From the NCBI RefSeq assembly GCF_000421545.1, contig NZ_ATXF01000005.1:1-64000 (forward strand): a stretch of 64,000 bases of DNA, in the 5' to 3' direction. The stretch is from Agromyces italicus DSM 16388 (lineage in GTDB: Bacteria; Actinomycetota; Actinomycetes; Actinomycetales; Microbacteriaceae). Below are positions 6,576 through 40,059 of the stretch, piece after piece. Made by a program: the position numbers and the translations under genes. Positions within the stretch are counted from its first letter, which is position 1, and each line of letters opens with the position of its first letter. The notes under the pieces were generated by a model. That model worked only from the letters and a program-made list of their open reading frames with translations, was not told where the DNA came from and did no database searches.

Positions 6576-7164
6576 TCGTCTGGGCCCCGATGAGGGCGAT
6601 GATCTCGGCGCGGCCGGCCGGCTCGGCGAGCGCACCCCGGCTCGCGATGGTCACGGTCGAGCTGCGCTCCTGCCGGGAGCCGCGGGTCGTGACGCAGCGG
6701 TGCTGCGCGTCGAGCACGACGAGCACGCCCTTCGGTTCGAGGCCGGTCACGAGCGCGTCGGCGATCTCCTCGGCGAGCCGCTCCTGCAACTGGGGCCGAC
6801 GGGCCAGCGTGTCGACGACGGCGGGGATGCGGCCGAGGCCGACGACCCGGTCGCCGGGCAGGTAGGCCACGTGGGCGGTGCCCACGAAGGGCAGCAGGTG
6901 GTGTTCGCACACCGAGCGGAACGCGAGGTCGCGCAGGATCACCGCGTCGGACGTCGCCGGCACCCCGGCTTCGGTCGAGCCGAGCGGCACGGTGTCGGCG
7001 AGGTGGGTCAGCGGGTCGACGTCGAGCCCGCCGAAGAAGTCGGCGTAGGCCTCGGCGACCCGCTGCGGGGTGCGCTCGAGCCCGGGACGCGCGGGATCCT
7101 CCCCGATCGCGAGGAGGATCTCGAGCACCGCCCGCTCGATGCGTTCGGCATCCACTCCGGCCAT
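6568..7164 (-). CDS. folE: GTP cyclohydrolase I
   Basis: FolE converts GTP to dihydroneopterin triphosphate, the first step of tetrahydrofolate synthesis. The 198-residue protein has the zinc ligands C86 and H89 in SVCEHHLLPF and C157 in QHRCVTTRG, and the substrate-binding block GRIPAVVDTLARRPQLQERL. It starts 23 nt after the ftsH stop and overlaps folP by 8 nt. Confidence 0.97.
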   Translation of the reverse strand: MAGVDAERIERAVLEILLAIGEDPARPGLERTPQRVAEAYADFFGGLDVDPLTHLADTVPLGSTEAGVPATSDAVILRDLAFRSVCEHHLLPFVGTAHVAYLPGDRVVGLGRIPAVVDTLARRPQLQERLAEEIADALVTGLEPKGVLVVLDAQHRCVTTRGSRQERSSTVTIASRGALAEPAGRAEIIALIGAQTNA

Positions 7165-7187
7165 GTCAGCCCTTCAGGCGGCGACGG

Positions 7188-15151: not shown

Positions 15152-16381
15152 TCAGCGGGCGATCTCGCCGGGGCGCTCGCGAGGCTGTGCCATTAATGTG
15201 CCATTAATGTCGGCGGGGGCCCGCCGTCTGGTTCGCTTCTGTGGTTCGCCGGCTGCACTCTTCAGTGCGTCGTTCAGGGCTGCGCCGGCACGGAGGGCGA
15301 CACCCTCGCGGGCACGCGAGTAGCGCTCGGTGACCTGCAGGCTCGAGTGCCCGAGCGTCGCCTGCACGTCGGGTGCGCTCGCGCCCGCATCGAACAGGAT
15401 CGTGGCGAAGGTGTGCCGGAGGTCGTGGATGCGCAGGTCGGGTCGGCCGATCGCCTCGCGAAGTGTCTCCCAGTCGGCGCCGCGGCGCGCGTTGTGATTC
15501 GTGAGGCGGCCACCGTCGGGACCAGCGAAGAGCAGGTCGCTCGATTGCTTGCCTCTCGCCGCTTTTTCGGCGTACGGACGCAGGGCGTCGATCAGTGGGA
15601 CGTCGCGGGACTTGTGGCTCTTCGGCGACTGCTCGATCAGCTCGCCGCGCTGGCCTGGGCTCAGCGACCGGCTGACGCGGATGATGCCGCGCTCGAAGTC
15701 GACGTCGCCGACGCGCAGCGCGGTCGCCTCCCCCGCCCGCATGCCGGTGTAGACGAGCGCCGCGAGGTAACCGCGGTACGCACCCTCGGGGACGAGGTCG
15801 AGCAGCATCTGGATCTGCTCGAGCGTGAGCGCGCGGGAGACCGGCGAGATCGAGTCGCGCATGCTCGGCCGCTTGACCTCACGGGCAGGGTTGTAGTCGA
15901 TGAATCGGGAGCGGCGTGCGCCGTCGAGCAGGCGTGAAAGGACGGCGAGTGCGTCGTTCTTGGCGGAGGCTCCGCCCGACCACGCGACCATCGCCGACTC
16001 GATCATGGGCGAGGTGATGTCTTCGAGCCGGTGCCGGCCCAGGCTCGGCTTCACCCGCAGTCGCCAGGCCACGCCGTAGCTGCGCCCGGTCGCCGGGCGG
16101 ACGGATGACGCGATCGCCGGCCAGTACTTCTCGTACCACTGCTCGAGCGTCATCGACCCGTTCGGGTTGCGGCCCGCTATGGCCTTGGCGAGTTCGCGTT
16201 TGGCCTCGGCGAGCGTCAGGAACGTGCGGGACCGCTCGGCCGCTCCCCCGTCGACGCTCGGGCCGACGACGCGGATCTGGTACCGCTGCCGGTCGGCGCG
16301 CCAGCGGATGCCCTCAGGCAGCGGCCGGCCCGTGCGCGGATCGACCCGCGACGGGGTGTCCTTCGTCGGCCGCCCGGCCAT
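15152..16381 (-). CDS. Tyrosine-recombinase integrase
   Basis: The 409-residue integrase catalyses insertion into and excision from tRNA-Phe. It has an N-terminal arm-binding-like region, a SAM-like core-binding domain (about 78-165) and a catalytic domain with R215 (TGMRAGE), K256/K258, H319 and R322 (HDLRHT), H345 (LGHSS) and nucleophile Y354 (TERYSRA). Its stop lies 34 nt from the tRNA, in the typical inward orientation. The last codons (about 391-398, INGTLMAQ) coincide with tandem repeats that recur at the other end of the element. The ATG overlaps the upstream excisionase stop by 1 nt (TGATG). Confidence 0.95.
   Translation of the reverse strand: MAGRPTKDTPSRVDPRTGRPLPEGIRWRADRQRYQIRVVGPSVDGGAAERSRTFLTLAEAKRELAKAIAGRNPNGSMTLEQWYEKYWPAIASSVRPATGRSYGVAWRLRVKPSLGRHRLEDITSPMIESAMVAWSGGASAKNDALAVLSRLLDGARRSRFIDYNPAREVKRPSMRDSISPVSRALTLEQIQMLLDLVPEGAYRGYLAALVYTGMRAGEATALRVGDVDFERGIIRVSRSLSPGQRGELIEQSPKSHKSRDVPLIDALRPYAEKAARGKQSSDLLFAGPDGGRLTNHNARRGADWETLREAIGRPDLRIHDLRHTFATILFDAGASAPDVQATLGHSSLQVTERYSRAREGVALRAGAALNDALKSAAGEPQKRTRRRAPADINGTLMAQPRERPGEIAR
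15186..15207. other. Left arm-type repeat pair (2 x tgtgccattaa) inside integrase gene
   Basis: Two adjoining copies of tgtgccattaa lie 69 nt inside the left att repeat. The same tandem pair, in the same orientation, occurs at 39892-39913 inside the right end. In the excised circle they would flank the core site, as arm-type binding sites do for bivalent tyrosine recombinases. Confidence 0.75.
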
Positions 16382-16578
16382 CAGTGCTCCGTGCCGCCCC
16401 GGGCGAGCAGGTCGTCGATCGTGTCGGCGCTCCAGAGCAGGTGCTTGCCCATGCGGGCGTCGGGCTCGGGGATGAGCCCGTCGTGGCGCAGCTTGTCGAA
16501 GCTCGAGACCGGGATGCGGCACCGCTCGGCCGCTTCGACTCGGCTCAGATACTCGACCCTCAGCGCGACGTCGACCAT
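16381..16578 (-). CDS. Excisionase-like small DNA-binding protein
   Basis: The 65-residue protein has a winged-helix/MerR-like HTH of the AlpA/Xis type (YLSRVEAAERCRIPVSSFDKLRHDGLIPEPDA split across the helices, then KHLLWSADTIDDLLAR). Such proteins bend DNA at att sites and steer the integrase towards excision, or act as regulators. An aaggggt ribosome binding site precedes the ATG. It is translationally coupled to the integrase by a TGATG overlap. Confidence 0.85.
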   Translation of the reverse strand: MVDVALRVEYLSRVEAAERCRIPVSSFDKLRHDGLIPEPDARMGKHLLWSADTIDDLLARGGTEH

Positions 16579-16646
16579 GATGCACCCCTTCGGCTAATCA
16601 CCGCAGTGTTGGCATCTCGTGCATGCCAGCGCAAGCGCGGCTATTT

Positions 16647-20855: not shown

Positions 20856-20883
20856 CTACCATAGGTAGTTGCAAGAACCTGAG
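20856..20883 (+). promoter_or_regulatory. Regulatory region before the relaxase: palindrome and third operator-like repeat
   Basis: A perfect ctacc-ata-ggtag palindrome (20856-20868) is followed by gcaagaacctgag (20871-20883), which matches the two repeats before xis and the 16718 gene in 11-12 of 13 positions. A ttgaat box at 20841 could be a -35 element. One regulator may control both excision and mobilisation genes. Confidence 0.55.
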
Positions 20884-20901
20884 CTAGCTCGGAGGAAGGC
20901 A

Positions 20902-23603
20902 GTGAAGGGTGGCGTGATCCTGTACCGGGGTTCTGGGGCCGACGCGCGCCGGTACCTCGAGTCGGATCGCTCCCGCGCCGACGACTACTACCTCGAGGGC
21001 GGGACATCCCTCGCCGAGTTCTCCGTCGTCGGCGGCGATGGCGAGGTCATCGGCGAAGGCGCACTCACCCCAGACCAATACGCGAACTGGGTGGACTGGA
21101 TCAACCCGCTCACCAGCGAGTCGATGGGCAAGCCCCGCTTGCCGGGCGATGGCCGGCAAGGATCGCCGCGATTCGCGGAGATGGTCGTGAATGCGCCGAA
21201 GTCCCTGTCAATTGCCGCGGCGTTGCACCCCGAGGTATCCGTCACTCTCGATGCTGCGCAGCGCGACGCGGTCGCCGCGATTCGCTCGTGGCTCGGCCAG
21301 CACTCGGTCACGAGGGTCGGCCCGCGCGGGCAGCAGCGGGTCGTTCCCGTCGAGCAGCTGGAAACGGTCGCCGTCTCGCACAAGACCTCCCGTGCGGGAG
21401 ACCCGCACCGACATATCCATTTCCAGATCGGGACGCGGGTGTGGGCAGCCGGAACATGGCGCGGCCTCGACACTGCGGCACTGTTCCGACAGCAGGGCGC
21501 GATCCGTTCGCTGGGCACGGCCGTCATCGCCGCACACCCCCAGCTCGCGACCGTCCTCGATGCCCACGGTCTGACCCTCGACCCTGTGACCGGAGAGGTC
21601 GCGGAGCTTCAGCCCTTCAACGCCGTGATGAGCAAGCGGGCCGAGCAGGTCGCGCGCAACCTCGCGCACTTCGAGAAGGAGTGGCGGGCAACGCATCCTG
21701 ACGCGGAGCCTGGCCCGACGGCGATGTCGCGGCTGATCACGATGGCGTGGGATCACGAGCGGCCGCACAAGCGACCGTCCTCCCTCGGCAGCGAGGCGGC
21801 ATGGCGCGCCGAGCTTGCGGACGCCGGCTACCGCCCCGACTTCGAGCGACGTCCTGCGCCGGCGCCGACGTCGCTGGACGACGTGAGTATTCGGAATGTC
21901 GCATCGCGTGCGCTCGACCGTTGCGCGGCTGCAGCGTCGACGTGGACGGTGCACGACATCCAGGAGCAGGTCACGCGCATCATCACGGAGACCGGCGTGC
22001 GCGCCGACGCGAAATCACTCTGCAAGAGCTGACCGTGCTCACGACAGGGCTGGCCGCGGATGACTGCCTTTCGGTCTTGCCACCCGACAGCCCGCATCCC
22101 GAGCACGTGGCACACCTCACGAGCATGCACGTCATCGCCGCCGAGACCCGGCTGCGCGACCTGCTCACGGCACGGGCCGCATACGCCGGCCGACGTCGCC
22201 GGCCGGACCTGACGCGCATCGGACGCCGGCACCGGCTCGACGCCGCGCAGGTGCGAGCGGCCTCGGCCGTGGCATCCACCGAGCCGCTCGTCGTCGTGGA
22301 GGGCGCCGCCGGCGCGGGCAAGACGACGATGCTCGCCGCCGCAATTGAGGCCGCCGCTGCGCACGGCCGCGCGATCCGCGTGGTCACGCCGACGAAGAAG
22401 GCCGCCGACGTTGCCCGCCAGGAACTCGGCGTTGCAACCGACAGCGTCGCGAAGCTCGTGCACGAGCACGGCTGGCGCTGGAATCGAGACGGCGTCTGGA
22501 CCCGGCTCGCCGTCGGCGATACAGATCCTGATACGGATGCCGCGTACGCCGGCCCCGCGGCATCCGCTCGTCTTGCTCGTGGTGAGCGCATCGTCGTCGA
22601 CGAAGCGGGGATGCTCGACCAGGACACGGCGCTCGCGCTCCTGACCGTTGCCGATGAGCACGGCGCCACCGTCGCCCTGATCGGCGACCGCGCGCAACTC
22701 GCAGCGGTCGGGCGCGGAGGTGTACTCGACATGGCGGCGCAACTGCTCCCCCGCGTGCACAGCATGACGACCGTTCACCGTTTCACCAACCCCGCGTACG
22801 CCGCGCTCACTGTGCAGATGCGCAATGGGGCTCGCCTTGCATCGCTGTTCGACCGTCTCGCAGCGCTCGGCCTCGTCGCGACGCATGAAGACACGGATGC
22901 CCTCCAGGACGCGGTCGCATGCGAGTGGCGGGATGGAGATGCCCTCACGGTTGCGACGAACGACGGAGCCCGCGAGTTGAACGCACGCATCCGTGAGGAA
23001 CGGATACGGGCACGGCGGGTCGATGACGATCGCACGGCAACCGGGAGCGACGGCCTGAGCATCGGACGCGGCGACGTGATCCAGACCAGGCAGAATGACG
23101 CCGCCGTGCACGTGGCGAACCGGCAGACCTGGATCGTCCAGTGCGTAAGCAGCGATGGTTCGTTGTGGGCGAGGGAGCGAAACGCCCGCAGACGCAGCAC
23201 TGTGCACTTGCCTGCTGAATACGTTGCCGAGCACACCCATCTGGCGTACGCCTCGACTGCTTATGGGATGCAGGGCACGACCGTGGCCGCCTCGCAGACG
23301 GTGCTAGCTGACACCATGGATGCATCCACCGTCTACGTCGGAATGACCCGCGGACGAATCTCCAACCGCCTCCACATCGTCGCGACTGATCTGGACGACG
23401 CGCGGGAGCAATTCGTGCTCGCAATGGAACGCAATCGCGCCGATCGCGGACTCTTGCAGGCGACGGCCGCTGCACGAGAGTCCATCCGCGGCCTCGTCAC
23501 TGGTACGGAGCGGCGGCAGCGCGAAGCAAATCTGCCGGATGGAACCAGATTCAATCGAGACCTGGCAAGACGGAGCACCCCGGAAACGGGCTTGGGCCGG
23601 TGA
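20902..23603 (+). pseudogene. MobF-family relaxase-helicase (TraA/TrwC-like), frameshifted
   Basis: The N-terminal part (20902-22032) is a MobF relaxase: tyrosine pair DDYY (about residues 29-30) and the 3-His metal site HRHIH (about 169-173). It would nick oriT and stay bound to the DNA. The frame ends at a TGA at 22030, but the next frame from about 22008 continues (REITLQELTVLTTG) into a RecD-like helicase with Walker A GAAGAGKTT and Walker B VVDEAGML, ending at 23603. One indel in the cg-repeat at 22006-22012 explains the break. The GTG at 20902 is chosen for its ggagg ribosome binding site; an upstream TTG lacks one. The combined length of about 900 residues is short for actinobacterial MobF proteins, so the C-terminus may also be lost. 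Confidence 0.85.
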
Positions 23604-27282: not shown

Positions 27283-28575
27283 GTGTTCAAGAAAACGATC
27301 GCAGCGGTCGGCGCCGGTGTCGCCGCCGTCGCCCTGCTCGCCGGCTGCACCGCCGGCGCCGGTTCGGAAGGAACGGATGCGTCAGGCGACGTCACCTTGA
27401 CCTTCCTGACGTTCGAGACGCCGAATCTCGACGCGGCCTACTGGGACGAGACGATCGAGCGCACCAATGCCATCGTTCCCGGCGTCAAGATCGAGCGCCT
27501 CGTGGCGCCGAACAACGACCGCGACGCGTACGCCCGCCAGCTCGACTCCACGGGTGAGCTGCCTGACATCATGGTCGCCGTGAACCCCACCGGGCTCGCC
27601 GAGGCCGGCAAGCTCGCCGAGTTCTCCGAGGACGAGCTCGAGAACTGGATCGACCCGACCTCGAACAGCTTCGACGGCACGATCTACCAGCTGCCGACGA
27701 ACACGCAGACGATCCCGAACATGTACTACAGCAAGGCGGCCTTCGAGAAGGCCGGCGTCGCCGAGGTCCCCCAGACCTGGGATGAGCTGCTCGCCGCGTC
27801 GGAGAAGGTCAAGGCCGCAGGCATCACGCCCATCGTCGTCAACGGCGGCGGCGCCGACACGTGGGCGAACATCTATGCACTCGACGGATTGATCGGCACC
27901 GAGGTCTACGCGAAGAACCCCGACTTCCTCGCCCAGCTCGCCTCGGGCGACACCGACTTCTCGGACCCCGACTTCGTGACCGCGGTGACGAAGTTCAAGG
28001 AGCTCATCGACAAGGGCTACGTCAGCCCGACCACGCTGTCCAAGACCTATGCCGAGGGCCAGGAGGCCTTCCTCGCGGGTGATGGCGCGATGTACCCGAT
28101 GGGCTCGTGGTTCAGCGTGGCACCCGACGAGGCGGCACAGGAGGACCTCGGCGTGTTCGCCTGGCCCTCGGACGACGGTTCGCTCATCATGCCGACCTAC
28201 ACCGGCGGCGGCCTCTCGGTGAGCTCGAGCGCCCCCGACGTCGACAAGGCCAAGGAGTGGGCGCTCGCCTGGTCGCAGGTGCAGGAGAACAATGCCGGAG
28301 GCGTCCTGAACGACGGCCTGTTCGTCGCGCTCAAGGACTTCACCGTGCCGGAGGGCACCACGAAGCTCTACGACGAGTCGCTCGCGCTCTACAACGACGC
28401 CGTCGAGAACGGCACGGTCGTGACGGTCTTCGGCAACGAAGGCGGAATCCCCTCGCTTCCGAGCGGTTTCAACGCCGAGGTCAACGCCGCCATCACAGAC
28501 CTGGTCAACGGACAGACCGACGTGGACGGATTCATCGACCAGCTCAACCAGAAGTACACCGAACTGACGCAATGA
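27283..28575 (+). CDS. ABC transporter sugar-binding lipoprotein
   Basis: The 430-residue family-1 extracellular solute-binding protein has a signal peptide ending in the lipobox LLAGC, so it is anchored outside the membrane by a lipid. The body shows the periplasmic-binding-protein pattern (GELPDIMVAV, PTNTQTIPNMYYSKAAFEKAG, TPIVVNGGGADTW). The GTG start is chosen from the gaggaag ribosome binding site and the correct signal-peptide length. It delivers an oligosaccharide, by context an alpha-galactoside, to the two permeases that follow. Its 3' end is followed by a 76-nt gap. Confidence 0.93.
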   Translation: MFKKTIAAVGAGVAAVALLAGCTAGAGSEGTDASGDVTLTFLTFETPNLDAAYWDETIERTNAIVPGVKIERLVAPNNDRDAYARQLDSTGELPDIMVAVNPTGLAEAGKLAEFSEDELENWIDPTSNSFDGTIYQLPTNTQTIPNMYYSKAAFEKAGVAEVPQTWDELLAASEKVKAAGITPIVVNGGGADTWANIYALDGLIGTEVYAKNPDFLAQLASGDTDFSDPDFVTAVTKFKELIDKGYVSPTTLSKTYAEGQEAFLAGDGAMYPMGSWFSVAPDEAAQEDLGVFAWPSDDGSLIMPTYTGGGLSVSSSAPDVDKAKEWALAWSQVQENNAGGVLNDGLFVALKDFTVPEGTTKLYDESLALYNDAVENGTVVTVFGNEGGIPSLPSGFNAEVNAAITDLVNGQTDVDGFIDQLNQKYTELTQ

Positions 28576-28651
28576 CGAACGACTCGCCGCCGGCCCTTGG
28601 TCGGCGGCGAGCCACGTCATGGCGCGAAGGCGCGCCGGAGAGGAATGGACC

Positions 28652-29623
28652 GTGTCCATCTCGAGCACCACCCGCGTGGCCCCCACACGCGAGCGCGATG
28701 AGCATCGCGCGACACCCCGGTCGAACGGGGTGATCCGCCGCGGCCTGCGTCGCTGGCAGGAGGCCGGCACGTTCGCCGTATTCGTCCTGCCCTCACTGGC
28801 CGTCTTCACCGCGATCGTGTTCGTTCCGATCGTCTGGACGCTGGCCATCGGCTTCACCGACGAACGAGCCACACGCCCCGAGACATCATTCATCGGATTC
28901 GACAACTTCGTCTTCCTGCTCACGAACCCGTCGTTCCTGCAGGCGCTCGGCAACACCCTGCTCATCACGGCCATCGTGGTGATCTTCACGAACGCGCTCG
29001 GCCTCGCGATCGCCCTCATGCTGCACAAGTCGGGATGGCTCTACAACCTGCTGCGCAGCGTGTTCTTCACGCCCGTCATCCTTTCGGCGGTCATCGTCTC
29101 CGTCATCTGGCGCTCGATCCTCGTCGACGACGGGCTGCTCAACACGACGCTTCGCTCGATCGGCGTGACCGATCCCCCCGGATGGCTCTCCGACCCGGCC
29201 ATCGCGATCTACAGCCTCTCCTCGATCATGGTCTGGCAGATGCTCGGCTTCGCGGTCGTCGTGTATCTCGCCGGGCTCGCGGGTATCCCCACCGAACTCG
29301 AAGAAGCCGCCTCGATCGACGGCGCCGGGCCGTTAGCTCGATTCCGCGCGATCACCTGGCCGCTGCTCGCCCCCTCGCTGACGATCACCACCGTCATGCT
29401 CATGATCAGCTCGTTCAAGGTGTACGACCAGGTCGCCGTCCTCACCAACGGCGGTCCCGGCTCCGGCAGCACCGCCACCATCGCGTTCGAGGTCATCCAG
29501 ACGGCCTTCGTCGAGCAACGTACCGGCATGGCCTCCGCGATGGCCGGCATCATGCTGATCATCGTGGCGGCAGCCAACCTCATCGTCCTCCGAGTCCTGC
29601 AGCGTCGAGAGGTCACCCACTGA
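28652..29623 (+). CDS. ABC transporter sugar permease, first subunit (MalF/UgpA type)
   Basis: The 323-residue protein has six membrane helices after a 40-residue cytoplasmic start and the EAA loop ELEEAASIDGAGPLARFRAITWPLL that contacts the ATPase. The GTG at 28652 follows an agagga ribosome binding site. It overlaps the second permease by 1 nt (TGATG). No ATP-binding subunit is encoded in the element, so a shared MsiK-like ATPase elsewhere must energise it. Confidence 0.93.
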   Translation: MSISSTTRVAPTRERDEHRATPRSNGVIRRGLRRWQEAGTFAVFVLPSLAVFTAIVFVPIVWTLAIGFTDERATRPETSFIGFDNFVFLLTNPSFLQALGNTLLITAIVVIFTNALGLAIALMLHKSGWLYNLLRSVFFTPVILSAVIVSVIWRSILVDDGLLNTTLRSIGVTDPPGWLSDPAIAIYSLSSIMVWQMLGFAVVVYLAGLAGIPTELEEAASIDGAGPLARFRAITWPLLAPSLTITTVMLMISSFKVYDQVAVLTNGGPGSGSTATIAFEVIQTAFVEQRTGMASAMAGIMLIIVAAANLIVLRVLQRREVTH

Positions 29624-39300: not shown

Positions 39301-39722
39301 CGAACTGCGCCAGGATCCACTGGCTCGTCGGCTGCGCCGCCGACGCCGCCGGAGACCGCGCGATCGCCGAAGATGCTTGGGACCGTGCGGCGTCCTCGGA
39401 CGGCGATTTTCTGGACATGAGTCCGAGCTCATTCAGCACGCAGACGGAGTACACGATCCGTGCGCTCCTCAAGGTCGGACGCAGGACTGAGGCGGCGACG
39501 CAGCATGCTGCACTCGGGGCATTCATCGACCAGCTTGCCGCCACTCCTGCGTCGATCGACTACTTCGCAACGTCGTTGCCGACCATGCTGCTCTTCCATG
39601 AGGATCCGGCGGACGCCCAGGCGGAACGAGTCAGCGAGTTGCGGGCCGCGCACGCGCGGCTCGCCGAAGTGCTCGGCCACGAGGGGCAGCGACGCGACGA
39701 GGGAATCGCCGAAGAATCGTGA
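36324..39722 (+). CDS. DUF5107-TPR protein
   Basis: The 1132-residue protein lacks a signal peptide. Residues about 40-380 form a DUF5107 domain, related to the galactose-mutarotase superfamily, with LVILPELGGRIHIGYDKGADYDFFYRNN and WISGGVEFNWPQHHRP (split across strands) typical of it. From about 500 to 1000 run tetratricopeptide-like helical repeats (YWREAVRRDPGHVGSHVALAGTLGRAG pattern). DUF5107-TPR proteins occur in carbohydrate loci of actinobacteria and Bacteroidetes, but no activity is firmly assigned. It is the last gene of the element. The start has no clear ribosome binding site. Confidence 0.82.
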   Translation: MVKETPSTPIPSSPNDPSRIVLPPVPAELVDAPVAAWSESILIDTYLPQKPSDYPAFLDRRVYQGSSGRVHPLPFHEKISAQKAPHLWEAIHLENAWIRLVILPELGGRIHIGYDKGADYDFFYRNNVIKPALVGLAGPWISGGVEFNWPQHHRPATFLPMDWEIEHEADGAVTVWCSDHDPFARMKGAHGIRLRADSTVIEARVRVTNRTEDPQTFLWWANVAAAVNDDYQVFFPTDVHEVADHAKRAVTTYPAVADRYYGVDYPAQVSADRPDGDRLDWYRNIPVPTSYMILDTEDDFFGGYDHGRGAGFVSVADHGFAPGKKLWTWGNAPFGWAWDDNLTDADGPYVELMAGAFTDNQPDFSWLAPGETKTFSQHWYPIREIGPAHQANLDLAIRLDVQRRENGTVVRLGVGSTRDRDRVVVELRDRSSGSVLSRRSTAISPDRPYLAEEALDGAFETSEILLVVTGDDGDELIGFAHRADAAHRPIRPAVEPPAPAEVGSVEELFLIGQYLEQYRHATRKPEPYWREAVRRDPGHVGSHVALAGTLGRAGLLQSAEDHLLLAVDRLTTWVPNPADGEAHYRLGVNLVRQGQDTRAVAALTKAMWTAAWHAPAGYALARIQARHGELSVALKTLDAVLAGGVHGQAEVLRAHLLGRIGRLDDSVASAERVLERDPLDQWARDVAGRPLSHDSGILLDVALEYAAAGSHLDALRMLRLASEAAPATADGQVQTGALILYHRAAILDRIGRTEEAADARSQARTSPEHNTAASRLEDVDALLVALDADPTDARAALMLGNWTYDRGRHHDAIDLWNRCVQRKRSAADGDDDDDAWIRVVAHRNLGIAAYNVLADTELALEHFEAARTAAPDDAKLFSEYDQLVERLGRNAAERLSAHEANLGLVLERDDLGIANATLLIESGDSGLARERLLARRFQPWEGGEGQVLAAWDAANLALAEQRLDAGDADGALGFLRSALEPPTTLGEARHPLANCARIHWLVGCAADAAGDRAIAEDAWDRAASSDGDFLDMSPSSFSTQTEYTIRALLKVGRRTEAATQHAALGAFIDQLAATPASIDYFATSLPTMLLFHEDPADAQAERVSELRAAHARLAEVLGHEGQRRDEGIAEES

Positions 39723-39891: not shown

Positions 39892-39913
39892 TGTGCCATT
39901 AATGTGCCATTAA
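39892..39913. other. Right arm-type repeat pair (2 x tgtgccattaa)
   Basis: Two adjoining copies of tgtgccattaa, identical to those at 15186-15207 and in the same orientation, lie 100 nt inside attR. Here they are non-coding, so their conservation is not explained by the integrase protein sequence. Confidence 0.75.
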
Positions 39914-40013
39914 ATGCGCGAAAACGAACTGAAACCAACTGTGACCGTTTCGAAGAATCCCTGATCAGCGCGATATCATGTCCTTAAGAATTGAGCGAAA
40001 ATGGCCCAGGCTC

Positions 40014-40059
40014 ACTGAAAATCGAAAGGTCACCGGATCGATGCCGGTCGGAGCCACCA
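40014..40059 (+). other. attR: right attachment site (3' part of tRNA-Phe)
   Basis: The 46 nt are identical to the 3' part of tRNA-Phe, including CCA. The 5' half of a tRNA is missing, so it cannot give a tRNA. It is followed by a hairpin (40062-40084) similar to the one after tRNA-Phe, the original chromosomal terminator with two or three changes. Confidence 0.9.

Follow-up and report, generated by a model that had tools for sequence, protein, structure and literature searches.

The tRNA-Phe island and its paired 11-mers

The window, meaning the whole 64,000-nt stretch of Agromyces italicus DSM 16388 DNA that was analysed, contains a 25-kb island flanked by 46-bp tRNA-Phe att repeats. The features of the locus are as follows.

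15042..15117, + strand: tRNA-Phe (gaa), the integration target
15072..15117, + strand: att core repeat, the 3' part of the intact tRNA-Phe
15152..16381, - strand: tyrosine integrase gene (int), 409 aa, PF00589 and PF14659
15186..15207, + strand: putative int-side (P'-like) arm, two tandem 11-bp units in the int frame
16384..16581, - strand: 66-aa helix-turn-helix (HTH) protein, candidate excisionase (HTH_17, E 0.0023, below the Pfam cut-off)
39892..39913, + strand: putative far-side (P-like) arm, two tandem 11-bp units in the same orientation
39927..39946, + strand: tandem 10-bp AACTGAAACC AACTGTGACC between the core and the far arm, candidate excisionase sites
40014..40059, + strand: att core repeat, far copy

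The two core repeats are identical across 46 bp, and the stop codon of the 66-aa HTH gene overlaps the int start (ATGA). The island has matches to a TrwC relaxase (20869-22032), a helicase, a cytosine methylase and sugar-use genes. Because the relaxase and the other gene matches sit between the att repeats, the island looks like an integrative mobilizable element, and the integrase, relaxase and tRNA att repeats that mark such elements are all present. Within 20869-23603, the TrwC relaxase and AAA_30 helicase matches fall in two overlapping frames and are not one protein.

TGTGCCATTAA is present in four exact copies, all on the + strand, at 15186-15196, 15197-15207, 39892-39902 and 39903-39913, and int (minus strand) reads the left pair as INGTLMAQ. 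A preliminary description of this DNA had reported a tandem at each end in the same orientation and had assigned the left one to the integrase C-terminus; the located copies and the translation of int agree with it on both points. It had also called the right pair non-coding. This pair does lie beyond a 1132-aa ORF that ends at 39722, but two frames in the mechanical ORF list run across it. The 100 nt given between arm and core at the far side is correct, whereas the 69 nt given for the int side counts as 68. The tandem is common to both window ends, and the adjoining DNA is not shared. At one mismatch or fewer, TGTGCCATTAA has 4 matches in the 64,000-nt window against 0.06 expected. No third site for the 22-nt tandem exists in the 3,730,505 bases (12 contigs) of the genome when up to three mismatches are allowed.

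Paired repeats in related elements

Relatives of the integrase were collected from genomes of the family (299 searched, 15 with a match at E 1e-60) and of the order (396 searched, 11 with a match at E 1e-90, some of them shared with the family set). A named genome collection contributed 57 loci; L042-L079 were evaluated, and the distant L080-L098 were left out. Group 1 is composed of the A. italicus element and the tRNA-Phe-type relatives with a tail, and its pairs are either A type (TGGCACA) or C type (TGGCCCA). A tandem 11-bp TGGC[A/C]C pair is found at the gene end in 28 of 32 group-1 loci and lies wholly before the stop and in frame in 27 of the 32; the pair of L057 straddles the stop. For L064 the script found no frame, and in L010, from the same genome, the pair straddles the stop. 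Both units are degenerate in L050, and the second unit of L144 is interrupted, with other DNA starting inside it. L052 (45-1256, Cryobacterium MAG) has no pair; its integrase is group-1-like as far as the RHT motif and then resembles the armless tRNA-Phe integrases. It is a recombinant or a misassembly.

A search of 23 related loci (856,886 bases, both strands) for TGGC[AC]C[AG]-N4-TGGC[AC]C[AG] gave 22 occurrences: 21 at the int gene end, 1 at a far end and none elsewhere in those loci. The motif belongs to a family-wide pattern and is not a product of chance. Nothing was found in favour of a chance repeat or an assembly artefact in the window, and such an origin is vanishingly improbable, as the four copies far exceed the 0.06 expected and the survey contradicts it with the same layout in many separately sequenced genomes.

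Between the catalytic domain and the arm, the tail differs widely in both length and sequence. The distance from arm to core is 93-96 nt in the Agromyces types and L053; in the others for which a core was found it is 141-208 nt. L058 (Gulosibacter macacae, 6661-8168) has an in-frame pair, with the nearest tRNA-Phe core 1424 nt past the stop, and so departs from the otherwise short spacing of arm and core. A third in-frame ATGGC[AC]C unit (EMAQ, EMAR or KMAQ) occurs 31 nt upstream of the pair in L004, L005, L048, L049 and L051, and L050 likewise has a third unit upstream of its pair. This unit tracks the A/C type. Broken int genes also retain the arm DNA: L044 has an early stop, L053 two internal stops and L062 a 5' frame break, the frame of L064/L010 is lost, L057 is without its 5' part and has another tail frame, and L012 matches only from residue 164. 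Recent decay alone may explain this retention, which is not strong evidence. Viral contigs held no useful relative, with a single match at 21% identity in one search and none in another. In phage and plasmid records, relatives are all below 60% identity and, among the matches listed (40 of 1999 and 20 of 807), reach at most 34%.

Second att copies were located by pattern and then read, giving 25 far ends of the group-1 type. As the preliminary description had anticipated for elements with the same integrase tail, the tandem pair recurs at 24 of the 25; the exception, Cryobacterium fucosi, has one good unit. The first TGGC is 145-147 nt after the core start in 23 far ends and 136 nt after it in G286. 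Arm-type repeats are present on both sides of the core, which is the lambda-type arrangement. Variants of the AACTGAAACC AACTGTGACC repeat are found in 12 aligned group-1 far ends.

When int and the far end are on the same contig (16 elements), 11 are A/A, 5 are C/C (including C. fucosi) and none are discordant (Fisher p 2.3e-4, kinship ignored). Among 8 cross-contig pairs, which were paired by inference, 7 agree. The A/C variant is concordant between the ends in 23 of 24 element pairs overall, so that the expected match between integrase tails and far repeats is upheld across related integrases. Sinomonas albida has a C-type tail and an A-type far pair on different contigs, and only one relative of this int was found in that genome. 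Leucobacter MAG G311 has a C-type int and, on a different contig, an A-type far pair; because this far end could not be assigned, it was excluded from the counts, as were int ends without a far core, such as G079, G306, G314 and G319.

Leucobacter soli (L137, L117 and L138, on three contigs) appears to have an A/A element and a C/C element in tandem at one tRNA-Phe site. Core copies without an adjoining pair (L040, L112, L113, L115, L129 and one side of L134) are taken for neighbouring or other elements.

Constraint on the integrase tail

Ten Agromyces A-type genes are identical at all 22 nt of the arm. In the same genes, codon bases outside the arm drift, with ATT, CTT or GTT (I, L, V) before it and CAG or CAA after it. 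The mean synonymous difference among these ten is 0.033 in the arm versus 0.28 overall, and only 8 of 366 seven-codon windows are as low as the arm, 5 of which overlap it. The contrast is weaker in a wider set of 13 genes that includes C types, where 21 of 374 windows are as low. Codon usage is also distinctive: exactly one TTA codon, located inside the arm, is present in 11 of 13 Agromyces/Cryobacterium-type integrases (L048 and L050 have none), and nine other island genes use TTA 2 times in 5715 codons. The tail peptides vary while the DNA pattern is kept, and include NGTLMAQ, NGPRMAQ, NGPGMAQ, NGPNLAQ, YGTNMAR and GGPSVAQ.

Group 2 (L066-L078) is composed of integrases that are 52-58% identical, from Microbacterium, Curtobacterium and Labedella. 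These stop soon after the catalytic domain and have no tail. ARAGORN located a target-type tRNA in 10 of the 13 loci (six tRNA-Phe and four tRNA-Met), at a distance of 1.8-3.5 kb from int. All 10 have a tandem 11-bp CCGGCACA-type pair outside int and near the tRNA, at about 93-94 nt (7 loci), 144 nt (1) or 208 nt (2) from the tRNA end. In the 8 loci with a second core, the pair is 151-152 nt after the start of that core in every case. L078 is A type on the int side and C type on the far side of one contig. With group-2 pairs near the tRNA and no tail, it would follow that the arm stays near the core and that a tail exists where int abuts the core.

The invariant 22 nt amid drifting codon bases, together with the pair kept near the tRNA in the tailless cousins, indicate that the tail is constrained at the DNA level. 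The same had been proposed in the preliminary description, and the frozen 22 nt between variable codon bases fit that proposal. NGTLMAQ could also be a protein-level tail motif, with the right-end repeat as a relic of a duplicated int tail, and the peptide is indeed nearly constant within the Agromyces A types. However, the window ends share the tandem and not the neighbouring DNA, peptides vary across genera while the DNA pattern is kept, synonymous positions are frozen and group-2 integrases are without the tail altogether, which makes this alternative highly improbable, and the idea that the far pair derives from a duplicated int tail was rejected.

The integrase as candidate binder, and known systems

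The integrase has the catalytic tyrosine recombinase domain of lambda-type integrases (PF00589, E 1e-26). No Pfam arm domain was found at its N-terminus at E 0.001. A fold model of weak to moderate quality (mean pLDDT 67.3) has strands at 25-28, 33-41 and 47-54 and a helix at 57-69, which would match the topology of an arm domain, and the C-terminal tail (residues 377-409) has pLDDT below 50. Foldseek matched the model to lambda and Tn1549 integrases at low TM, with E 1.5e-10 and TM 0.27-0.31 for lambda Int (1z1b_A). In the integrase tree, the A. italicus protein clusters with its counterparts from Agromyces salentinus and A. lapidis.

Three integrases, L015-L017, are apparently without the N-terminal domain, as judged by open frames. 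No TGGC-type pair was found within 250 nt of their stops or at their three far ends. In the G036 element with an armless integrase (L015, L038), GGGGGTGAAGCG is common to the vicinity of the int end and the far end.

Residue 53 separates 23 group-1 proteins by arm type: all 14 A types have T there, and all 9 C types have M (8) or Y (1). L143 (C, M) and the broken genes L044 and L062 are concordant with their arm type. The residue lies in the third strand of the three-strand-plus-helix unit of the fold model (mean pLDDT 67.3). It is not unique as a separator because column 260 likewise splits A from C types. A tree made without the N-domain and tail calls for two changes to account for the A type, of which strongly supported branches force only one; the association of residue 53 with the arm therefore rests on about two switches. 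This covariation with an arm base is suggestive. T53 is paired with TGGCACA and a tail T, M or Y53 with TGGCCCA and a tail P, and, in group 2 aligned by eye, L with CCGGCACA. We consider it possible, if somewhat doubtful, that residue 53 reads one arm base and that residues 53 and 395 coevolve through the DNA and not through a protein contact.

The four 11-mers are very probably arm-type sites of the element's own lambda-type tyrosine integrase, with translated arm DNA forming the tail. The position, pairing and conservation of the units, the A/C agreement between ends and the constraint at the DNA level are established by sequence; that the integrase binds the pairs is what we infer. A tandem pair would serve as the arm to either side of the tRNA-Phe core, the pairs being directly oriented and their units spaced by one turn of the helix. 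The integrase would grip the arms with its N-terminal domain and work at the core with its core-binding and catalytic domains, and excision would be promoted by the small HTH protein. Since only a few tens of bases separate the end of int from the core, the arm on the int side would come to lie within the reading frame. The C-terminal tail would in effect be arm DNA in translation, an extension with little structure and with residues set by the binding site.

The pairs might instead be sites for the excisionase (the HTH protein) or another regulator. A candidate directionality factor is encoded in the element and, according to the available part of one report (PMC7498355), direct repeats spaced by one helix turn are bound by recombination directionality factors as well. 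Against this, the pairs flank the core on both sides, such sites are more plausibly the separate 10-bp tandem near the far arm, no pairs are seen with the three integrases apparently without an N-terminal domain, and a residue in the predicted arm domain of the integrase tracks the arm variant. Binding by an excisionase or another regulator is thus improbable, and arm sites of the integrase are the preferred reading.

Several known systems resemble this arrangement. Lambda has arm sites on both sides of the core, with the P' arm toward int. In the lambda record, an Int-binding stretch (27814-27854) lies inside the int CDS (27812-28882), and matches to the arm consensus end at ~27815 and by that measure only touch the int end. 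Phage P22 has a tandem of 11-bp-spaced TGGGACA at 21387-21404, inside the int CDS (21353-22516, minus), and a second TGGGACA tandem at 21168-21185, across the core (21300-21322). We read these as likely P22 arm sites. The P22 layout, an in-frame pair at the int 3' end and a pair beyond the core, is also that of the A. italicus element, but the motif and the host differ, and relative to int the P22 motif reads the opposite way if TGGGACA is equated with TGGCACA. In mycobacteriophage Cluster K and J cassettes, the core lies between pairs of 10-11-bp repeats that are putative arm-type sites, and N-terminal residues 17 and 19 are proposed to track arm variants in Cluster K (PMC3203893, PMC3706429). 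The attP is 5' of int in Cluster K and the core is ~100 bp past the int 3' end in Cluster J; arms inside the coding tail are not described in the available excerpts of these reports (PMC3203893, PMC3706429). The arm sites of KplE1 prophage intS overlap the integrase gene's own region, as here, but, in the excerpted account, it is the promoter on the 5' side and not the coding tail that they overlap (PMC2951348). In the AICEs pSAM2 and pACPL, the att identity segment at a tRNA gene has repeats to either side, and those of pSAM2 are said to be bound by Int; unlike the 11-mers, these repeats are 21 nt in the part of the report available (PMC3364876).

Because the P22 layout, the lambda arms and the mycobacteriophage paired arms resemble the A. 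italicus element, the layout is not new as a kind. P22 appears to show the same one, and the comparative evidence here is unusually clean. Among the titles and excerpts covered by a literature search, no description of these arms or of arm sites within an int tail was recognised.

The tail would be a protein segment conserved for the sake of its DNA, seen by natural comparisons across many bacteria. It is also a caution that such C-terminal motifs need not mean protein function. The arm sites of uncharacterised integrases may be readable from their own tails, and with the paired A/C variants the arm-recognition code of these domains could be put to a direct test. If residue 53 does read an arm base, the tails of many att-adjacent integrases would spell out arm-site specificity.
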